In this document: one piece after another, positions 1,758 through 9,830 of the stretch | How the letters are laid out: each line of letters opens with the position of its first letter | Numbering within the stretch: position 1 is the first letter of the stretch | Source: Pelagophyceae sp. CCMP2097 | Taxonomy: Eukaryota; Sar; Pelagophyceae | Assembly: GCA_026770575.1 (NCBI GenBank) | Contig: MU657186.1 | Span: 181,118 to 192,289, forward strand | Length of the DNA: 11,172 nucleotides | Direction: 5' to 3' | Position numbers and translations under genes: made by a program | The notes under the pieces: generated by a model | What the model was told of the DNA's origin: nothing | Seen by the model: the letters and a program-made list of their open reading frames with translations, nothing else | The model's database searches: none

Positions 1758-1968
1758 GTCGACCGGAGACGACGTCGTAGCAATCGAGGAAGAGTGGAAA
1801 CAAACCCTTCGAGTCGTTTCGAAACCGAATAATTCGATTGTCATCTGACGAATAACGACTGAAGCTTAAGTCGAAATTTCCGGGTTTTCAATATTTCAAG
1901 CGTTCCGCAGGCCGCAAGCGCGTTTGCGTCGGATCTCGCCGCGTTCTCGTTCCTTGGAGTCTATAGCT

Positions 1969-3412
1969 TTACGATTCGCTCCGTTTCCTCGACGTCGGCG
2001 TCGAGATGCGGTCGAAGCAGGCATCGGTGGCCTCCAAAAGTTCGTGTGTAATGTCTGGGTCGTACTGCGAATGGCCCGCGCCCGTGACCTACAGACGCGA
2101 TGAACGGACAACCCAAACCCCGCGGCCCGGACGCCGCTGCAGACGAGTCGGAGTTCGAGCTCCGGCCAGTAGCGGTGGAGTTCGAACGCCGTCGCGGGCG
2201 GGCAGATCGTGTCCGCGCCGCCCTGCACCGCAATGGCCGGGATGTGCCGCAGCGCCGACGAACCCAATAGGAGCGCCCCGTCCTCGAGGAAGCCTGGGTG
2301 TGCGGTTGGCACGCGACGCGATTCGAAGGCGCGAAAAACGCACCGTTGTGGACAGAGTAGTGGCAGGTGAGCATCTGCTGCGCCGGCGCGTAGTCCTGCG
2401 AAGCGGCCGGCGAAGCGGTGGCGTTGGTTTTGCGCGCCGAGGTGAAGCGGAGACGCGCGGGCGGGCCGTAGAGCGAGTCGACGTCGGAAGCGCATTGGTT
2501 ATCGCCGCGCGCCTCGAAGCGCCAGTTGGGCGAAACGAACTTGGCGACGCCGCGCCGGCTCGTCACCGCGCTCGCCGAAGACTCCCAGGACGACCACGCC
2601 CGCGCCGCCGAATCGCGCAGCGCGCGGTCGCCGCCTGTCAGCCGTTTGTGGTACGCCTCCAAAATCTTGCGAGAGTCGGTTGCGCCGACAGGTTCGTCGG
2701 CCTCGACGAGTTTGGCAAAGTCGGCCCAGCCCTTTGGCGCGAGTTGGGACATGCCACCCTTTGGCGCAAAGAGCCAGTCGATCTCGTTGGCCCGCATGGT
2801 GCAGACACCCCTTAAAACCATGCTCCGCAAGACGCGCGGGTGCAGCTGGGCGTAGGCCAACGCGAGCGTCGAGCCCCAGCTGCCGCCGAGGACGCAGCCC
2901 CACTGCTCGACGCCGAGTCTGGAACGGAGGAGCTCGAGGTCGTCGATCAACAGCGGCGTCGTGTTCTCGCGCCACTCGCCCTGGGGCGTACTCCGGCCGC
3001 AGCCGCGCTGGTCTAGGAGGAGGACGCGCCACTTTTTCGGGTCGAAGAACCGAGCGTGATTGGGGTAGCAGCCCGCGCCAGGGCCGCCGTGCAAAAACAG
3101 CGCCACGGGCGCAGTCGAGTTCGCATTGCCTACGAGCGCTCTGCAGCGGAGCGTGCCGCAGCGCTCCGCTCCACGGCGCGCTCCACGGCGACGCTCGGCG
3201 ACGCTCCACGGCGGCGCACCTCGGAGCTCGTAGTAGACCGTGTGGCCGCCGCCGACGTCGACCATCTCCGTTTTGATCACCGGCGACAGAGGGTGCAGCG
3301 TCCGCTTGCTTTCCGTCGCGGACCTGGCAAACGACGGCCTGTGCGACGACCGGGGCGCGGACCTTGGCAGGACGAGCGCGTCGCCAAAGGCGAGCAATAG
3401 GGCCAACTTCAT
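1969..3412 (-). CDS. pip: proline iminopeptidase (prolyl aminopeptidase, alpha/beta hydrolase), four exons, secretory leader
   Basis: Exons in order of transcription are 3412-3220, 3129-2344, 2293-2145 and 2088-1969. They join to 415 codons plus TAA with phases 1, 1 and 0. The enzyme (EC 3.4.11.5 family) removes N-terminal proline from peptides. Visible hallmarks are the HGGPG oxyanion motif (78-82), DQRGCGRS (104-111), the nucleophile elbow GGSWGS with Ser148, Asp354 in GGADTICP and His382 in GAGHS. The 28-residue Asp-to-His spacing equals that of the Serratia enzyme. The chosen ATG opens MKLALLLAFGDALVLP, a likely signal peptide, so secretion or a secretory-route organelle is inferred. An in-frame ATG at 3469 would put 19 residues in front of it. 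Introns are 90, 50 and 56 nt. The 90-nt one (3219-3130) is a multiple of three and stop-free, so retention would add 30 residues. The cap (about residues 235-320) is some 50 residues longer than in bacterial homologues, and a missed small intron there is possible. Confidence 0.9.
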
Positions 3413-3801
3413 GGGACTGGCGAGCCTCGCCCCGGAAGCGCCGGGGCGCAGCCCTGCAGAACCGGCCATGCCGAAGCCCGAACGCCTCGCAGCACCGGCG
3501 TCGACGCGTCGACGTCAAGCTTCTCGAGTTGAGCCGCGGAGTCGCCCTGACTCAGAGACCTCGCACATTCGACGTTTCTGGAAAGTGCTTTTGCCGGTTT
3601 CGCGCCGCGAAGTACAAGCGCTTCAATGAGTATGGTTTTGCGCGAACCCGAACTCAAGCCTCCCACGATGCTATGACTTCATCAAAGGGGCCGCTCCCTG
3701 CATCGAGCCTCGTGCATTTCCGTTGCGAGGGTCTTGTCAGGGAGGCGCATTCAATGCCGTTCGAGAAAATGCATTACGCCGTCGCAGGCGCGCCGGCGGC
3801 G
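3413..3801. other. intergenic spacer between the two minus-strand hydrolase genes
   Basis: This holds the 3' flank of the YbfF-like gene and the 5' flank of the iminopeptidase gene. No TATA-like element, repeat or further gene stands out. An extension of the iminopeptidase frame reaches an ATG at 3469. Confidence 0.5.
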
Positions 3802-4829
3802 CTACGCGGGCGCGAGCACTCGCCTCGTCACGTGGTCGACGAGGAGCGAAACGACTCTTGGGAGGTTGTCGACGTGAACGTTGTGGCCCGATTCCGGCGC
3901 CGTAAAGTGCGCGCCGTGCGCGCCCAAGCGGTCGAGGTCGGCGCGCCACGGCGCCCAGGGCGCCGGGTTCTTGCCCGCCGTGAGCAGCGCAAAGCTGCCG
4001 TCGGCCGCGAGGTCGTGCCTACGTGCGCCGTCGGCGGACGCGGGGCACAGCACGACCCCAAGCGATCCCATAGAATGGAGGATGTCGCGCGGATCCCATC
4101 GAAGCGATAGGGTCGGTTGGGCGCGGGTTTGCACGCGACGTGCCAGAGGTCCGTGTCTCGGTACGCGTCGTACAACGCGACGATGCCCGGCACGTCGTGC
4201 TGGAAGTGGAATCCACCATCACGCTGCTCGACGGCCGAGGCGAGCCACGCCGCCGTGGCCGCGTCGAGGCCTTTGGCCTCGAGCGCTCTTGTCGCTTCGG
4301 CGCGCGACGCAAACGGCTCGTCCGCGGCGGCGGCGGCGAGCGCCTCGATGACGCCGTCGACGCCCGTCTGCACGGCGCGGCTCGCGCCGGGCACCGAGTC
4401 GACCAAGAGCGTGTGCCGCGGCGCCTCGAGGCCTTTGGCGGCGCGCTGCGCGGCGTACGCGAGGGCCACCTTGCCGCCAAACGAGTGGCCGACGACGAAC
4501 GCGGCGCCGGCGTCGGCGCTTGTGGCGCAGGGCGTCGACGGCGTCGGCGCTTGTGCGCCGACGGCCGCGCGGAGCGTCGCGGCGACGTCTTCCGCGCAGG
4601 CCTCTACCGTGTGCGGCGCGCCGGCGACGCGAGAGGCGCCGTGGCACCGCAAGTCGACGAGGAGCACCTTGACGCCCGGCACGGATTGGACGAGTTTCTT
4701 CGCCGGCGCCATCCAGTTGCGGCCCGTGCCCAGAATGCCGTGCAGCACGACGCCCACGCGCGCCCGCGCAAAGTCGGCCGAGCCGCCCAAAGCGCCGCTG
4801 CTCACCCACTTGTGCGCCAGCACCGACAT
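3802..4829 (-). CDS. alpha/beta hydrolase of the YbfF/ABHD11 type, two exons
   Basis: Exons are 4829-4135 and 4018-3802, joined at phase 2 into 303 codons plus TAG. The fold is clear: HGILGTGRNW (residues 30-39) supplies the oxyanion hole, VDLRCHG (58-64) is the strand-4 motif, and GHSFGGK carries nucleophile Ser116. The LVDSVPG stretch has Asp144, matching the conserved LVDISP aspartate of the family. GHNVH supplies His277 near the C terminus. Such enzymes are esterases or thioesterases of loosely known substrate; I cannot assign one. No leader is visible, so a cytosolic enzyme is inferred. The intron (4134-4019, 116 nt, GTGCAA...CGTAG) was placed because removing it joins DTDLWHVA to HDLAADGSFALLTAGKNP, as family alignment requires. 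An alternative donor giving a 38-nt intron is possible but fits less well. The gene diverges from the membrane glutaminase gene. Confidence 0.85.
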
Positions 4830-5364
4830 GGAGGCGGGAACGAGTTTCCGGGGCCGCGCGCCCTGCGCTGAGTGGCCGTGCGACGCTCGAGCGCTTTAAA
4901 TTTTAAAGTGCTCGGACAAAGACGACTCGGCGACATTTTCGAATTTCAACAAACGCATCATTTTTAAAGACATCTTTTGAAAATTTTCCCATAACATAGG
5001 AATTCCTAGGAATTCCTACAATTGTATGGCGTCTAGGAATCCTCCTAAACGATTCAAACGGTTCGAGTCGCGACCCAGTCCAAAAGGCCCGAAGCCATGT
5101 CTGCATTCGTTTTGATATACCGGCGAGAGTGATGTCAACAGGAGAGGTGATCGCAATAAAGGTCAAAACAAAGTAGGAGTGCATAGAAGAAGAAGAAGGA
5201 TTCCTAGGAAGGATTCCTACATGAAAAAAAAGAAAATTCGAGCAGATTGCTTGCTATAAGATTCAGATTCTTCAAAAAAAGTTAAGTGTCATGTGGAACC
5301 TTGGTAGAAGAAAGGATCCCTACAATTGTTGCTAGTCAGTTTCCTTCGCAACGCGAGCCGCTCA
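4830..5364. promoter_or_regulatory. divergent promoter region with TAGGAATTCCTA palindromes
   Basis: This AT-richer gap separates the start codons of the YbfF-like gene (minus) and the membrane glutaminase gene (plus). A palindromic box recurs: TAGGAATTCCTAGGAATTCC from 4998, CTAGGAATCC from 5033, and GGATTCCTAGGAAGGATTCC from 5199. The string CCTACAATTGT follows box-like sequence twice, at 5015-5025 and 5319-5329, the latter about 35 nt before the plus-strand ATG. The repetition suggests protein-binding or initiator-type sites, but no factor can be named. Confidence 0.45.
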
Positions 5365-8300
5365 ATGGCCGCCCGCGCGGCGCTGCTCGCGCTGCTGCAG
5401 GCGGCGAGCGTGCGCGCGGCCGTCTTCGACCAGTGCGCGACGGTGGCAGCCGACGGCTCCGTGGTCCGCCTAGCTGGGCCCAACGAAGTCTGCGCCTGCG
5501 GCGCATCCTTGCCGGACAAACTGTACCAGATGGCAACGCTCGGCTTCGCGACGTACGTCGGATCCCACGAAGCCTGCCGGGGCCCCTCGATGGGACCGCG
5601 TCGCTCGACGGCCCGAGGCGGTCCGACGCGGATCCGAGACCGGAGGACTGGTCCTCTCCCGTGATCTCGCGCGCTACGAGGTACGACGCGGTGGCCTACT
5701 ACGCCACGGGCTCGTCCACGGGCAAGGACAGCATCGTCAAGGCGGCGGTGGACTTTGCCGGCTCCGACTCGCTCCTCAAGGATTCGGACTACACCACGGC
5801 GCCGGATCTACAAATGTACCCGGCCACTGCTGCGGCCGTCGTGCCCGTCGTGCACCTGCCGTCGTGCGTGCTGCGCCGTGTGGAGAGCGCCGCTGTGTCG
5901 GGGGCGCCGCAGAGTGGAGAGCGCCAACAGGGTCGACAAAGGGTCCGCGGGTCCGGGTCCGGGTCTTCGACAAGCCCCGGACCCGCGTGGGCCGAGGCCG
6001 GACCCGAACCCGGACCCGGCCGTGGGTCCGCGGCCTCGGCCGGACCCGGACCCGGACCCTACCCCGCGCGGACCCACGGCCGGACCCGGACCCGGACCCT
6101 ACCCCGGGTCTTGCACGGGTCCGGGTCGGACCCGGACCCTTTGTCGACCCTGAGCGCCGAGTACGACGCCGAGGCAACCGAGAGGACCCACCCATCGGGC
6201 GAGGACCACGTGGCACGCGTATCACCGTGCGCACCTAGGCTCGACGCCGCAGGCGCCTCGCTCGTCGTCGACCGCGTGACGCTGCCGCTGATCTTCCTCG
6301 GCGATATCTTTGAGTGGACGGACTCGCGCATCCTCGCGCTCCAGTCGCCGCAGACGCGCGCGCTGCTGCAGCAGATGCCCGACGTCACGATCCGCGTCGT
6401 CGTAAGGGATGATGGAAGCGGCACTACGGAGATCTTCACCAAGGCGCTCTCCGCGTTTTCGTCCGACTTCACGGCGCGCGTCGGCGGCAACGACATTTTG
6501 GACTGGTGCGAGGACGGCATGGACAAGCTGCCGTGCCCCGGCAATACGTTTACCGACGGCGCCTGCGATAGCAACCCCGACAAATTCAACTGCTACGGCG
6601 GCAAGGTATGAATCAATGTCAACGGTCGGCAAACGCGGCCATCCGCCGCGACCGAGTGAGGACCGAGTCGCGAGAGGGCGCCGAGGCTCGACGCCGTAGG
6701 GACGACGCTGGCCGCCGTCCATGCATGCATCGTTAGGGCGAGTGTGAGGGCGTCTCGTGGCTCTTCAACTCGGGCTTCAAATCGAGCGGCACCGTCACCT
6801 GCGCCAAGGCCTCGCACGAGGGCCGCCACTGGGCGTACACGCGCGGCGCCGGCACGGCGGGCCTGGTCGCTGCCGTGCAGTCCTTGGACGGCAGCATCGG
6901 CTACGCCGTGCTGGCCGACGTCAACGACGCCGGTTTGACGCAGGCGATGGTGGTGAACAGGGCCGGGTCCGCGCTCATTGCGGATCCGGAGACGGTGTCG
7001 TTCGCTTTGCTCGAGCTCGGCGGGTTCCTAGACGAGCGCGGCAACGGCGAGCTTTTCGACGCGTCGTCGACGTTTGCGTACCCCATCGTCGGCTTCACGT
7101 ACTACGTGCTGCGCAAGGGACTCCAGGACGGCGTCTCGCACATGGACATGGCGCCGGAAATGTTCGACTGCCGGACGCGCCTCAAGACGCTGGCCTTCCT
7201 CGAGTGGTTCTACACGTCGACCGCCGTGGAGGGCATGGCCAAGACGCTCGGCTTCACGAATCTGCCGAAGTTCATCAGTTCGGCCCTCCTCGACGAAATG
7301 CTCGCGGAGAACTATTGCGTCGACGCCGAGACGGGGGAGATGCGGCTCGTCAAGGCGCGCGCCGAGATCCAGGTGCGCCGCGTCCGCATCCGCCGAAGTG
7401 TTCGCATCCATTCTTCGCATCCACCGAATGTAGGTCGAAGAGCTGTACACCATCGACTTTGCGGTCAAGGCGCTCGTCGTCGTCACGACCGTCTACAAGG
7501 AGACGGACGCCAACGTCGCGTGGCGCATCGACGAGGCCGACGCCTCGGCGGCGCTGGCGCGCGGCGGCGTCGACACCGCGCTCGGCGTCGCCGCGCTCTT
7601 CGCGGCCGACGCGAAGCCGACGGCCGTCTTCTCGGCGCCGTTTATGACCGTCGGCTTCAGCGTGCAGTACCATCTCGGCACCACATCTGATGTGTCATTG
7701 ACGCACGCCGAACTCGCCGCCATCTACACGTGCACCGTCAAGACGTGGCGCGACCTCCGGGCCGACCTGCCGGATCAGCCGATCAGGTTGGTCGTCCGGT
7801 CCGACGAATGCGACGCCGTCGACGTCTTCACCGCGGCGCTCTCGTTCCACGTGCCGTCGTTCGCGACGGCCATCGGCCCGACGCGCGCGCTCGACGCGGC
7901 GCTGCTCAAGTCGATGGGTTGCACGGTGGTGGCCGAGGTGCAGTCGGACACGCAGGTGGAGTCGGCCATCACGTTCTACGACTTTTCGCTGGGGTGGTGG
8001 ACCAAGACCACTGGCCCGTCGGCCAAGCTCGCGTCGTTCAGCGGCGACGCCGAGGCGGCGGTGAAGCTGGACGCGGCGTCGCTCCGCGCGTGCGAGGCGG
8101 ACCCGTCGGCGGTGTTGGCGTACGACACAAAGGCGTTCAACTTCGCGTCGTCCGTGTACGACCTCTCTCCGAGGGCCACGGGCGCCGCGGACTGCTGGCC
8201 CTACTCGCGCAGCTACAACATGGTCATCAACGAGCAGCTGCTGGGGCCGCGGCAGTGCGAAAAGGACGACAAGGCGCCTGGACAGGGGCCGTCGCAGGCG

Positions 8301-9830
8301 TTGGCGCTCGTGCGCTGGATCTACGCGGGCAAAGTTTTCGACTCGCTCGAGGCGTCGTCCATCCTCTCGCCGTCGGCCGAGGACCGCTTAAAAGTTCTCG
8401 CGGTACTGGACCAGTTCCCTCTGTCGTACTGCAACCCGGCGACTCGGACCATGGCCGAGGCGCTGACGCTCATCCTCGTCCTCACGCTGTGCGCCGCGGG
8501 CTTCATGGTCTGCTTCGCTTTATGCTCGGTGAACCTGTACCGGCGGCGCGTCGCGCGCATGCTGGCCAAGGCGCAGATCGTGCTGCCAGAAAACGTCCAG
8601 GAGCTCCTCGAGGAGGTCTGGGCCACCGTGCGGGACCAAGACGGCGGCGCAGTCGCCGACTACATTCCCGAACTCGCGGCGGCGGACCCGACGCCCTTTG
8701 CCATCGTGCTCTGCGACATCCAGTCCGGCGCGCTCTACGAGGCGGGCGACGCCACGAAGCGCTTCACGCTGCAGTCGGCGTGCAAGCCTTTACTTTATTG
8801 CCTCGCCCTCGAGGACAACGGCCAAGAAGCCGTCGACAAGAAGGTCGGCTCGGAACCGACGGGCGGGCCGTTCAACGTCGTCTCCTTTGACACCCAGGGC
8901 CGGCCGTTCAACCCTTACGTCAACGTGAGTCGCGCAGGGCCTTTGAATTCCAGGCCCGAACGTTTCCGTCGCCGACGCGATTGGACGCGGACCGCGTAGG
9001 CGGGTGCAATTTGCACCACGGGCCTCGTCGCGGGCGCGTCGTCCGAGGAGTGCTTCCGGCGCTCGACGGAGCTCTTCAACGCCATGTCGCTCGGCGCCGA
9101 CTGCGGCACGGGCCTCGACGACGCTGTGTACAAGAGCGAGATGGCCACCAATGCCAACAACCGCACCATCGTCGACGAGGCGCTCAAGCGCGACCTCCTC
9201 ACCAAGGGCAAGGGCCTCTTCGCGCTCGAGGCGTACACCATGGCCTGCTCTTTATCGGTAGACTGCCGCGAGGTGGCCGTCGTCGCCGCGACGCTCGCGA
9301 ACCACGGTCGCAACCCGAAAACGGGCGAGCAGGTACTCCCTGAGTGGGTCGTCAAACGCGTCGTCTCGACGATGATGACGTGCGGCATGTACAACGGCGC
9401 TGGCGCGTGGATGGTCGACGTCGGCATCCCGGCCAAGTCGGGCGTCGGCGGTGTGATAATGTGCGTCGTCCCCGGCGTATGCGGCTTTGCCGCGTTCTCG
9501 CCGCGCCTCGACGCCAACGGCAACTCGACGCGCGGAGTGGCCGTCGCGCGCGGAATGTCGGACAAGCTCGGCCTGCACGTGCTGCACCAGAGCGCCGGCA
9601 AGGGCGGCGCCAAGCCGCCGAAGAAGGCGTCGTCGCCGGGGGGCGCGGCCCTCTCCCCGATACGCAAGTCATTCGACGTCAGCGGCCACGGCCGACCCGA
9701 GGCGCCGCGACCAGCGCTCGCGCGCACCCGGTCCGCGCGCATCGAGCCCGCTTCCAACTACGCCGCCACGGTCGAAGGGTCCAAGGCGTCGCAGCCCCAA
9801 AACGGCGTCCGCCTCGCCGAAGAGCCGTAG
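5365..9830 (+). CDS. membrane-anchored glutaminase with two N-terminal PstS-like binding domains, six exons
   Basis: Exons are 5365-5552, 5681-5863, 6239-6605, 6737-7372, 7434-8924 and 9000-9830. They join to 1,231 codons plus TAG with phases 2, 2, 0, 0 and 0. In order the protein has a signal peptide (MAARAALLALLQAASVRA), a PstS-like solute-binding domain (about 46-458), a diverged second copy (about 459-797), a transmembrane helix (801-826) and a glutaminase domain (about 846-1152). A basic, Ser/Pro-rich tail (1153-1231) ends it. RRR follows the helix directly, so a type I topology with an outside sensor and a cytosolic enzyme is inferred. Glutaminase converts glutamine to glutamate and ammonia. 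The ankyrin repeats that follow this domain in animal GLS are absent. Introns are 128, 375, 131, 61 and 75 nt; the second contains a transposon and is itself a stop-free multiple of three. The first ATG of the frame was used because it begins the leader. Exon joins are supported by homology on both sides. Confidence 0.88.
5864..6238 (+). other. intron 2 of the membrane glutaminase gene (375 nt, repeat-rich)
   Basis: The donor GTGCGTGC and acceptor CACCTAG join at phase 2, giving HLPSLDAAGASLVVDRV, which fits PstS alignments. The intron is a multiple of three with no stop in the exon frame, so retention would insert 125 Gly/Pro/Ser/Arg-rich residues. Without the embedded transposon and one target copy it would be about 142 nt, close to its sister introns. 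TGGAGAGCGCC occurs twice at its left end (5881-5891 and 5915-5925). Confidence 0.85.
5928..6152. mobile_element. hAT-like MITE (225 bp) inside intron 2
   Basis: The perfect 20-bp inverted ends read CAGGGTCGACAAAGGGTCCG at 5928-5947 and its reverse complement at 6133-6152. The flanking 8-bp sequences are AGCGCCAA (5920-5927) and AGCGCCGA (6153-6160), matching at 7 of 8. CAGGG ends with an 8-bp duplication are the signature of the hAT superfamily. The interior is built from GGGTCC/GGACCC units, including a 40-bp direct repeat (from 6037 and from 6077). It has no coding capacity, so it must have moved in trans. The single mismatch in the duplication suggests an insertion that is not brand new. 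Confidence 0.85.
7434..8450 (+). other. domain 2 of the membrane glutaminase: diverged PstS-like domain, pocket largely lost
   Basis: Residues about 459-797, all in exon 5. GGVDTALGVAAL, LTHAELAAIYTCTVKTWRDLR and IRLVVRSDECDAVDVFTAALS align with the same blocks of domain 1. The position equal to Asp92 is Val510. After Arg580 the GSGTT loop has become ECDAV, so the Ser/Gly/Thr ligands are Cys584, Asp585 and Ala586. The GSSTGK loop is also missing. It probably arose by duplication and now serves a structural, dimerising or different-ligand role. Confidence 0.7.
8460..8537 (+). other. single transmembrane helix of the membrane glutaminase
   Basis: Residues 801-826 are a continuous run of Leu, Val, Ile, Ala, Phe, Met and Cys with no charge. 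RRR follows at once at 828-830, then further basic residues. The positive-inside rule places the downstream glutaminase in the cytosol. Confidence 0.9.
8595..9590 (+). other. glutaminase catalytic domain (GLS type), interrupted by a 75-nt intron
   Basis: Residues about 846-1152. LQSACK holds the Ser906-x-x-Lys909 catalytic pair (human Ser286/Lys289). Asn955 is in VNAGAI (human Asn335); Glu1002 and Asn1009 match Glu381 and Asn388; Tyr1034 matches Tyr414; Tyr1086 in CGMY matches Tyr466; Val1104 in PAKSGVGG matches Val484. The gaps 906-955, 1002-1009, 1034-1086 and 1086-1104 equal the human ones exactly. VADYIPELA before the Ser motif is typical of the family. Intron 5 (8925-8999) cuts directly after Asn955. 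An active enzyme is expected. Confidence 0.93.

Follow-up and report, generated by a model that had tools for sequence, protein, structure and literature searches.

Here we describe a split gene of Pelagophyceae sp. CCMP2097, an Arctic pelagophyte (Stramenopiles), which occupies positions 5365 to 9830 on the plus strand of an 11,172-nucleotide stretch of contig MU657186.1 (this whole stretch is the window, and nucleotide positions refer to it). The joined six-exon model, with five GT-AG introns, encodes 1231 amino acids (aa) without internal stops, in the order of a PstS-like domain, a second PstS-like domain, a predicted membrane helix and a complete glutaminase. Judging from sequence comparison, the product is probably an enzyme-linked nutrient receptor, in which a nutrient signal from outside would be converted into the output of a cytosolic glutaminase. 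Pfam matches in the protein are confined to two families, PF12849 in two stretches above threshold (E = 2e-26) and PF04960, which covers aa 863-1149 (E = 5.1e-93). The parts of the gene are listed below.

5365..9830 (+): full coding region in six exons, comprising a signal-peptide-like start, binding domains 1 and 2, the predicted helix, the glutaminase and a tail (from Pfam, transcript identity and paralogs)
5365..5552 (+): exon 1, a start that by eye resembles a signal peptide, then the first strand (GASLP) of binding domain 1
5553..5680 (+): intron 1, GTACGT...GAG; junction agrees with the P0002 open reading frame (ORF), GYASYDVVDYY
5681..5863 (+): exon 2, GSSTG and SDSLL segments of binding domain 1
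5864..6238 (+): intron 2, GTGCGT...CTAG, with a GGGTCC/GGACCC array; junction agrees with the P0002 ORF, HLPNLDAAGARLVVDR
6239..6605 (+): exon 3, binding domain 1, with the phosphate-type loop RDDGSGT at 6405-6425
6606..6736 (+): intron 3; its junction, at codon 246, is covered by the 697-aa identity with P0001
6737..7372 (+): exon 4, last part of binding domain 1 plus the segment between the two domains (P0001 transcript ORF)
7373..7433 (+): intron 4; the junction at codon 458 lies inside the P0001-identical stretch
7434..8924 (+): exon 5, binding domain 2, membrane helix, linker and first third of the glutaminase
7797-7814 (+): altered loop RSDECD of binding domain 2, within exon 5
8469..8525 (+): predicted membrane helix, aa 804-822, with RRR shortly after (hydropathy only)
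8583..8603 (+): motif LPENVQE in the juxtamembrane linker, common to proteins of other sensor types
8646..9581 (+): glutaminase domain, the PF04960 span of aa 863-1149, split by the intron at 8925-8999
Glutaminase residues (+): Tyr 8661-8663, Ser-x-x-Lys 8775-8786, Asn 8922-8924, Glu 9138-9140
Further glutaminase residues (+): Asn 9159-9161, Tyr 9234-9236, Tyr 9390-9392, Val 9444-9446
8925..8999 (+): intron 5, GTGAGT...GTAG, right behind the active-site Asn codon; the P0001 block of aa 923-961 spans codon 955, where the paralogs agree too
9000-9830 (+): exon 6 (exon model)
9591..9830 (+): C-terminal tail, weakly constrained among paralogs (substitution ratios in three pairs)

The joined model, the Pfam matches and the paralogs bear out the original prediction of a continuous frame leading from two binding domains through a helix into a complete glutaminase. 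A correction is needed at 5864-6238, which is best read as an intron with a GGGTCC/GGACCC array. Repeats at 5874-6099, rich in GGGTCC/GGACCC in their later part, fill this intron and stay open in the exon frame by chance. An alternative intron 2 of equal length (5878-6252) was set aside because the junction in the C536 paralog reads L-D-A-A-G-A, and an exon 2 start at 5618 was rejected, the comparison of paralogs giving 5681.

The window gene is a true fusion and a member of a gene family. A profile search of the genome found at least 14 PF04960 matches at seven loci and at least 12 PF12849 matches, all 12 of them inside those seven loci; these counts are lower bounds, since only the best candidates were taken and the assembly searched (66.2 Mb, 638 contigs) is smaller than the published one (85.8 Mb, 1716 scaffolds). 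At all seven glutaminase loci the binding domains precede the enzyme in identical order, so that the fusion is not due to chance. The six other loci align with the window protein from the binding domains through the helix into the glutaminase, and in two of these paralogs (C536 and C6) binding domain 2, the helix and the glutaminase lie in a single intronless genomic frame of 832 codons. Stops occur in the aligned frames at C6, C17 and C39, those of C6 inside an intron-like insertion.

Transcripts also argue for a single gene. Over aa 211-907 (697 residues), every letter of the MMETSP transcript ORF P0001 agrees with the window model, a stretch that spans the introns at codons 246 and 458 and extends from the first binding domain, via the helix, to the Ser of Ser-x-x-Lys. 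Transcripts stopping between the helix and this motif had earlier been named as the sign of two genes; the identity crosses exactly that interval, and the uninterrupted frames of the two paralogs point the same way. Both ends of P0001 match paralog C74 (98.98% and 99.6%), so the whole ORF is probably an assembly chimera and the identical stretch alone was used. ORF P0002 follows paralog C536, with 100% identity over aa 1-416 and 98.6% over 416-991, and P0003 is 100% identical to paralog C32 as far as aa 746, a little beyond its predicted helix (707-725). In their 3' parts, P0001-P0004 are ORFs of different paralogs with one common glutaminase 3' end, as assembly chimeras or gene conversion would produce.

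The glutaminase domain is complete. The PF04960 match covers profile positions 1-285 of 286 with 311.8 bits (cut-off 27), and the equivalog cut-off of TIGR03814 is also passed (279.8 against 255.4 bits). Every main active-site residue had been predicted to be present, and all nine positions checked (Tyr, Ser-x-x-Lys, Asn, Glu, Asn, Tyr, Tyr, Val, which we take to correspond to those of human GLS) were found in the window protein. They are all kept in 26 of 28 receptor proteins examined, the exceptions being P0172, with a gap at one position, and P0131, which deviates at the last two. No ankyrin repeats were matched by Pfam in the window protein.

For the binding domains, the claim of two PstS-type domains stands for the fold of both and, by alignment, for the phosphate loop of the first only. 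A profile of domain 1 built from three sequences recovers PstS structures, with 5wnn at the top (E = 1.3e-31); domain 1 aligns to PstS in two stretches that cover most of the fold, and keeps the phosphate loop R-x-D-G-S-G-T when aligned to the PstS chains 5wnn and 2z22. The domain 2 profile gives a weak match to the phosphate-binding chain 4q8r (E = 7e-7). Other ligand positions of domain 1 differ among the paralogs (SDS vs SES; GSS vs GST or GSN), which hints at differing affinity or ligand.

Hydropathy places the membrane segment at aa 804-822 (mean 2.69). There is one Lys or Arg in the preceding 18 residues and there are five in the following 18, which by the positive-inside rule puts the glutaminase in the cytosol. 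Ligand-binding domains, a single helix (hydropathy only) and a catalytic domain are thus combined in one chain in the manner of a one-pass receptor. The relatives P0006 and P0010 have an N-terminal segment that the hydropathy scan picked out.

We compared the window model with 224 proteins found in public protein searches, giving a set of 225. Two of the searches scored the best 7996 and 7995 candidates by shared words, and one of them gave the best 120 of 1939 matches; all candidates had at least 372 aa, so solo enzymes may exist inside the receptor group. Among these public proteins, some of them from eukaryote transcriptomes and green algae, the helix-glutaminase module stands behind five kinds of sensor: PstS-like, UrtA-like, NMT1-like, ANF-receptor and MHYT. 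The UrtA-type proteins P0010, P0011, P0013, P0016 and P0017 have two Peripla_BP_5 stretches each, and P0017 exceeds the NCBI UrtA cut-off (607.6 against 492.75, as the sum of two copies). One NMT1 stretch is present in P0018, two ANF_receptor stretches in P0046, and an MHYT sensor in P0007, P0008, P0009, P0012, P0031, P0036 and P0043. Green-algal relatives are P0036 from Pyramimonas (MHYT) and P0135 from Tetraselmis sp. GSL018 (helix and glutaminase); P0012 bears a Tetstr1 label, while P0004 and P0172 are NCBI proteins of Pelagophyceae sp. CCMP2097 itself. No match to PF13433 or MHYT was found in the CCMP2097 genome in an exon-by-exon scan, which a split gene could escape. The occurrence of different sensor domains on one glutaminase group strengthens the earlier proposal of a one-pass receptor enzyme.

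Several other fusions were seen in the same set. P0012 combines an IQ motif, MHYT and glutaminase, an arrangement that would allow control by calmodulin. An ammonium transporter, an EF-hand and a glutaminase are joined in P0092 (937 aa), and an ion channel, an EF-hand, a glutaminase and ankyrin in P0079 from Streptomyces monticola. P0069 has a globin domain at the C-terminus of its glutaminase, and P0118-P0120, P0122-P0125, P0127 and P0129 (618-682 aa) contain two nearly complete tandem glutaminase domains.

A tree was calculated for 57 proteins hand-picked from the 225. In comparison with a first tree of 61, it is without P0021, P0033, P0107, P0109, P0117 and P0130 and includes P0120, P0124 and P0125; P0131 was dropped as short, and P0001 (chimera) and P0005 (partial) are in neither. 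A branch with values of 97/99, present in 96% of 200 bootstrap trees, separates the 25 receptor proteins from the rest, including the ankyrin glutaminases and those labelled bacterial-type in this analysis. PstS-type proteins occur at two places, and constraining them to one clade gave a worse fit (p-AU of the approximately unbiased test, 0.0086). The simplest reading of these sequence data would be a single origin of the membrane glutaminase, with sensors exchanged later.

The segment between helix and enzyme is shared across sensor types. An LPxNVQE-like pattern within 60 residues before the glutaminase occurs in 24 of the 225 proteins, all 24 with predicted membrane segments, and in none of the ankyrin or bacterial-type proteins; the count of 24 is descriptive, because the pattern was written after some of the sequences had been seen. 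Among 28 receptor proteins examined, the distance from LP to the lid Tyr equals 26 residues in all 23 that bear the motif, and P0018, read separately, has the same spacing. The PstS-type protein P0004 and the MHYT-type protein P0009 were modelled, and both models contain a 37-residue helix through and beyond the membrane segment, with low confidence in P0004 and better in P0009, followed by a break at LP and a helix of 12-13 residues adjoining the enzyme. The P0004 model is good only in the glutaminase, for which Foldseek gave 1u60 as the best match, and was left unused for domain 2. The fixed spacing would fit a mechanical coupling.

Ratios of nonsynonymous to synonymous substitution rates (dN/dS), calculated by the Nei-Gojobori method between the window gene and three of its six paralogs, were 0.19-0.27 for the glutaminase and 0.34-0.51 for domain 2, with 0.90, 1.05 and 1.78 for the tail. 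By these values the glutaminase output is conserved and the sensor is diversifying, a pattern known from receptor families. Synonymous divergence (dS), too, is smaller for the glutaminase than for domain 2 (for C536, 0.36 vs 0.67), so gene conversion may contribute.

On these grounds we propose how such a receptor could work. The two PstS-like domains, held outside the cytosol, would bind phosphate or a related nutrient ligand, with phosphate or a similar compound as the putative ligand of domain 1. Closure of the tandem binding domains around the ligand would change how two or four chains pack at the membrane, and this change could be relayed by the linker of fixed length to the glutaminase, an enzyme of a tetramer-forming family. 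The switched cytosolic enzyme is predicted to convert glutamine into glutamate and ammonia, and the likely purpose would be to let a nutrient signal from outside act on the cell's own glutamine/glutamate pool. Cooperative activation of GLS2 is described as accompanying a dimer-to-tetramer shift, and the tetramer as conserved between human GLS2 and the bacterial glutaminases YbgJ and YbaS (PMC8130709).

A number of observations weigh against the proposed receptor or its evolutionary setting. According to PMC8130709, the phosphate-stabilised GLS2 tetramer has the lowest efficiency. Domain 1 misses the PstS equivalog cut-off TIGR00975 (175.3 against 205 bits) and is therefore called PstS-like only; domain 2 lacks the phosphate loop, reading R-S-D-E-C-D, which together with its weak structural match makes phosphate binding there unlikely. 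The signal peptide of the original prediction is recognised by eye only; the 19-residue hydropathy scan flagged none in the window protein, and no N-glycosylation sequon occurs in its presumed ectodomain of 785 aa. The linker motif is absent or varied in P0006, P0046, P0135 and P0213, and the P0004 model has predicted local distance difference test (pLDDT) values mostly below 50 in domain 2 and the long helix. Helix and linker together evolve no more slowly than domain 2 (dN/dS 0.39-0.50), so that this ratio does not reveal a tight constraint on the linker, which shows instead in the spacing and in comparisons across families. Names were given to the tree groups once a first quick tree had been made, the bootstrap correlation of 0.988 (0.99 wanted) is not fully settled, and P0006 sits on a long branch. 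Finally, locus C39 (L025), with its stops in the aligned frames, may be decayed or intron-rich, and the 3' ends of P0001-P0003, common with another paralog, are probably assembly chimeras.

The alternative that survives best, although we regard it as unlikely, is a membrane-tethered metabolic enzyme, that is, a constitutive glutaminase kept close to a site of nutrient capture or to a partner transporter for local supply of glutamate and ammonium, with no switching by a ligand. A complete active site and the position of the glutaminase as the slowest-changing part of the protein would suit such an enzyme, as would P0092, whose ammonium transporter and glutaminase make a plainly metabolic pairing. 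It leaves unexplained why five sensor types share one glutaminase group, why the ligand-binding folds are duplicated, and why the linker spacing of 26 residues recurs in 23 of 23 motif-bearing proteins.

Alternatively, the binding domains could face the lumen of a vacuole or another store and report stored phosphate, which we judge improbable. In its favour, receptor cyclases of like layout in Trypanosoma cruzi are also located at the contractile vacuole complex (PMC10470820). The lack of sequons in the presumed ectodomain and location signals limited to the putative signal peptide are likewise consistent with an intracellular membrane. Against it, the UrtA-type sensor serves outside nutrients in bacteria, and the UrtA-type relatives suit the cell surface better.

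There is little to recommend a third possibility, that the glutaminase is catalytically idle and acts as an intracellular sensor binding glutamine, with the signal reversed or passed to partner proteins. Regulatory roles of enzyme-derived domains are common; retention of the nine active-site positions in nearly all receptor proteins speaks against idleness here. That gene prediction merged a binding-protein gene with a glutaminase gene, for which one could cite the separation of the exons in the window by introns and stops, is practically untenable in view of the 832-codon frames of two paralogs, the 697-aa transcript identity and the same order at seven loci.

Nothing here points to a viral origin, no viral collection having been scanned; glutaminase genes have been reported from giant viruses (PMC9270025). 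Elsewhere in the window, two alpha/beta-hydrolase frames lie on the minus strand at 1961-3514 (PF00561, E = 2.2e-20) and 3828-4895 (E = 3.4e-9), the former presumably resembling proline iminopeptidase. A telomere-like interstitial array at 1635-1673 consists of 6.5 copies of TAGGGT, and an AT-rich unit of 31 bp is repeated 3.5 times, 96% alike, at 489-595.

Returning to the receptor, a search of the open-licence full text of PubMed Central (PMC) brought up no article describing a membrane glutaminase that resembles a receptor or is fused to a sensor, and the earlier statement that no characterised glutaminase is known to sit behind an extracellular binding module agrees with this search. By term search, the word 'glutaminase' occurs in the main text of neither the CCMP2097 genome paper (PMC9756366) nor a salinity paper (PMC9133084). 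More broadly, and with rather less confidence than for the window protein, we put forward that microbial eukaryotes, algae included, may possess a receptor class with glutaminase output. In this class a helix-linker-glutaminase module of single origin would have had its sensors (phosphate, urea, NMT1-type, ANF-type and MHYT) swapped, and the outside nutrient or gas state would be written into the glutamine/glutamate ratio as a metabolic second messenger. If true, the glutamine pool, a signal of nitrogen status in its own right, would be tied directly to outside phosphate or urea, and the sensing and coupling of phosphorus and organic nitrogen in phytoplankton would become testable with named candidate proteins.

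Familiar one-pass receptor enzymes have a kinase, phosphatase or nucleotide cyclase as their output. The animal receptor guanylyl cyclases (ANF receptor) combine an outer ligand-binding fold, one helix and an inner enzyme, a layout like that of the window protein, and the relative P0046 even has two ANF_receptor stretches; however, the output enzyme is a different one and the sensor fold of the window protein is PF12849. With PstS of ABC transporters, domain 1 has in common the fold and R-x-D-G-S-G-T, whereas the window domains are in tandem, fused to a helix and an enzyme, and carry a Cys-rich insert (absent from P0006). The mitochondrial, ankyrin-type GLS and GLS2 have the same catalytic domain and the same active-site residues; in contrast, the window protein is without ankyrin, falls into a separate tree group, and has a membrane helix and sensors added. 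Bacterial STAS and cNMP-binding glutaminases (e.g. P0132, Rhodococcus sp. SRB_17) likewise join a glutaminase to regulatory domains, but are separate in the tree and have no PF12849 or other binding-protein domain among the matches listed. The closest working analogy is offered by the trypanosome receptor adenylate cyclases (TcAC of T. cruzi), with one or two periplasmic-binding domains, one helix and a C-terminal enzyme (PMC10470820). Their output is a nucleotide cyclase and that of the window protein a glutaminase, no cyclase domain being matched in the latter by Pfam; moreover, the TcAC binding domains are not termed PstS-like in the excerpted text of PMC10470820, and the likeness would be one of layout only. 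The layout of the window protein is thus of a known kind, while its output enzyme and the range of sensors are new within the open-licence PMC full text.

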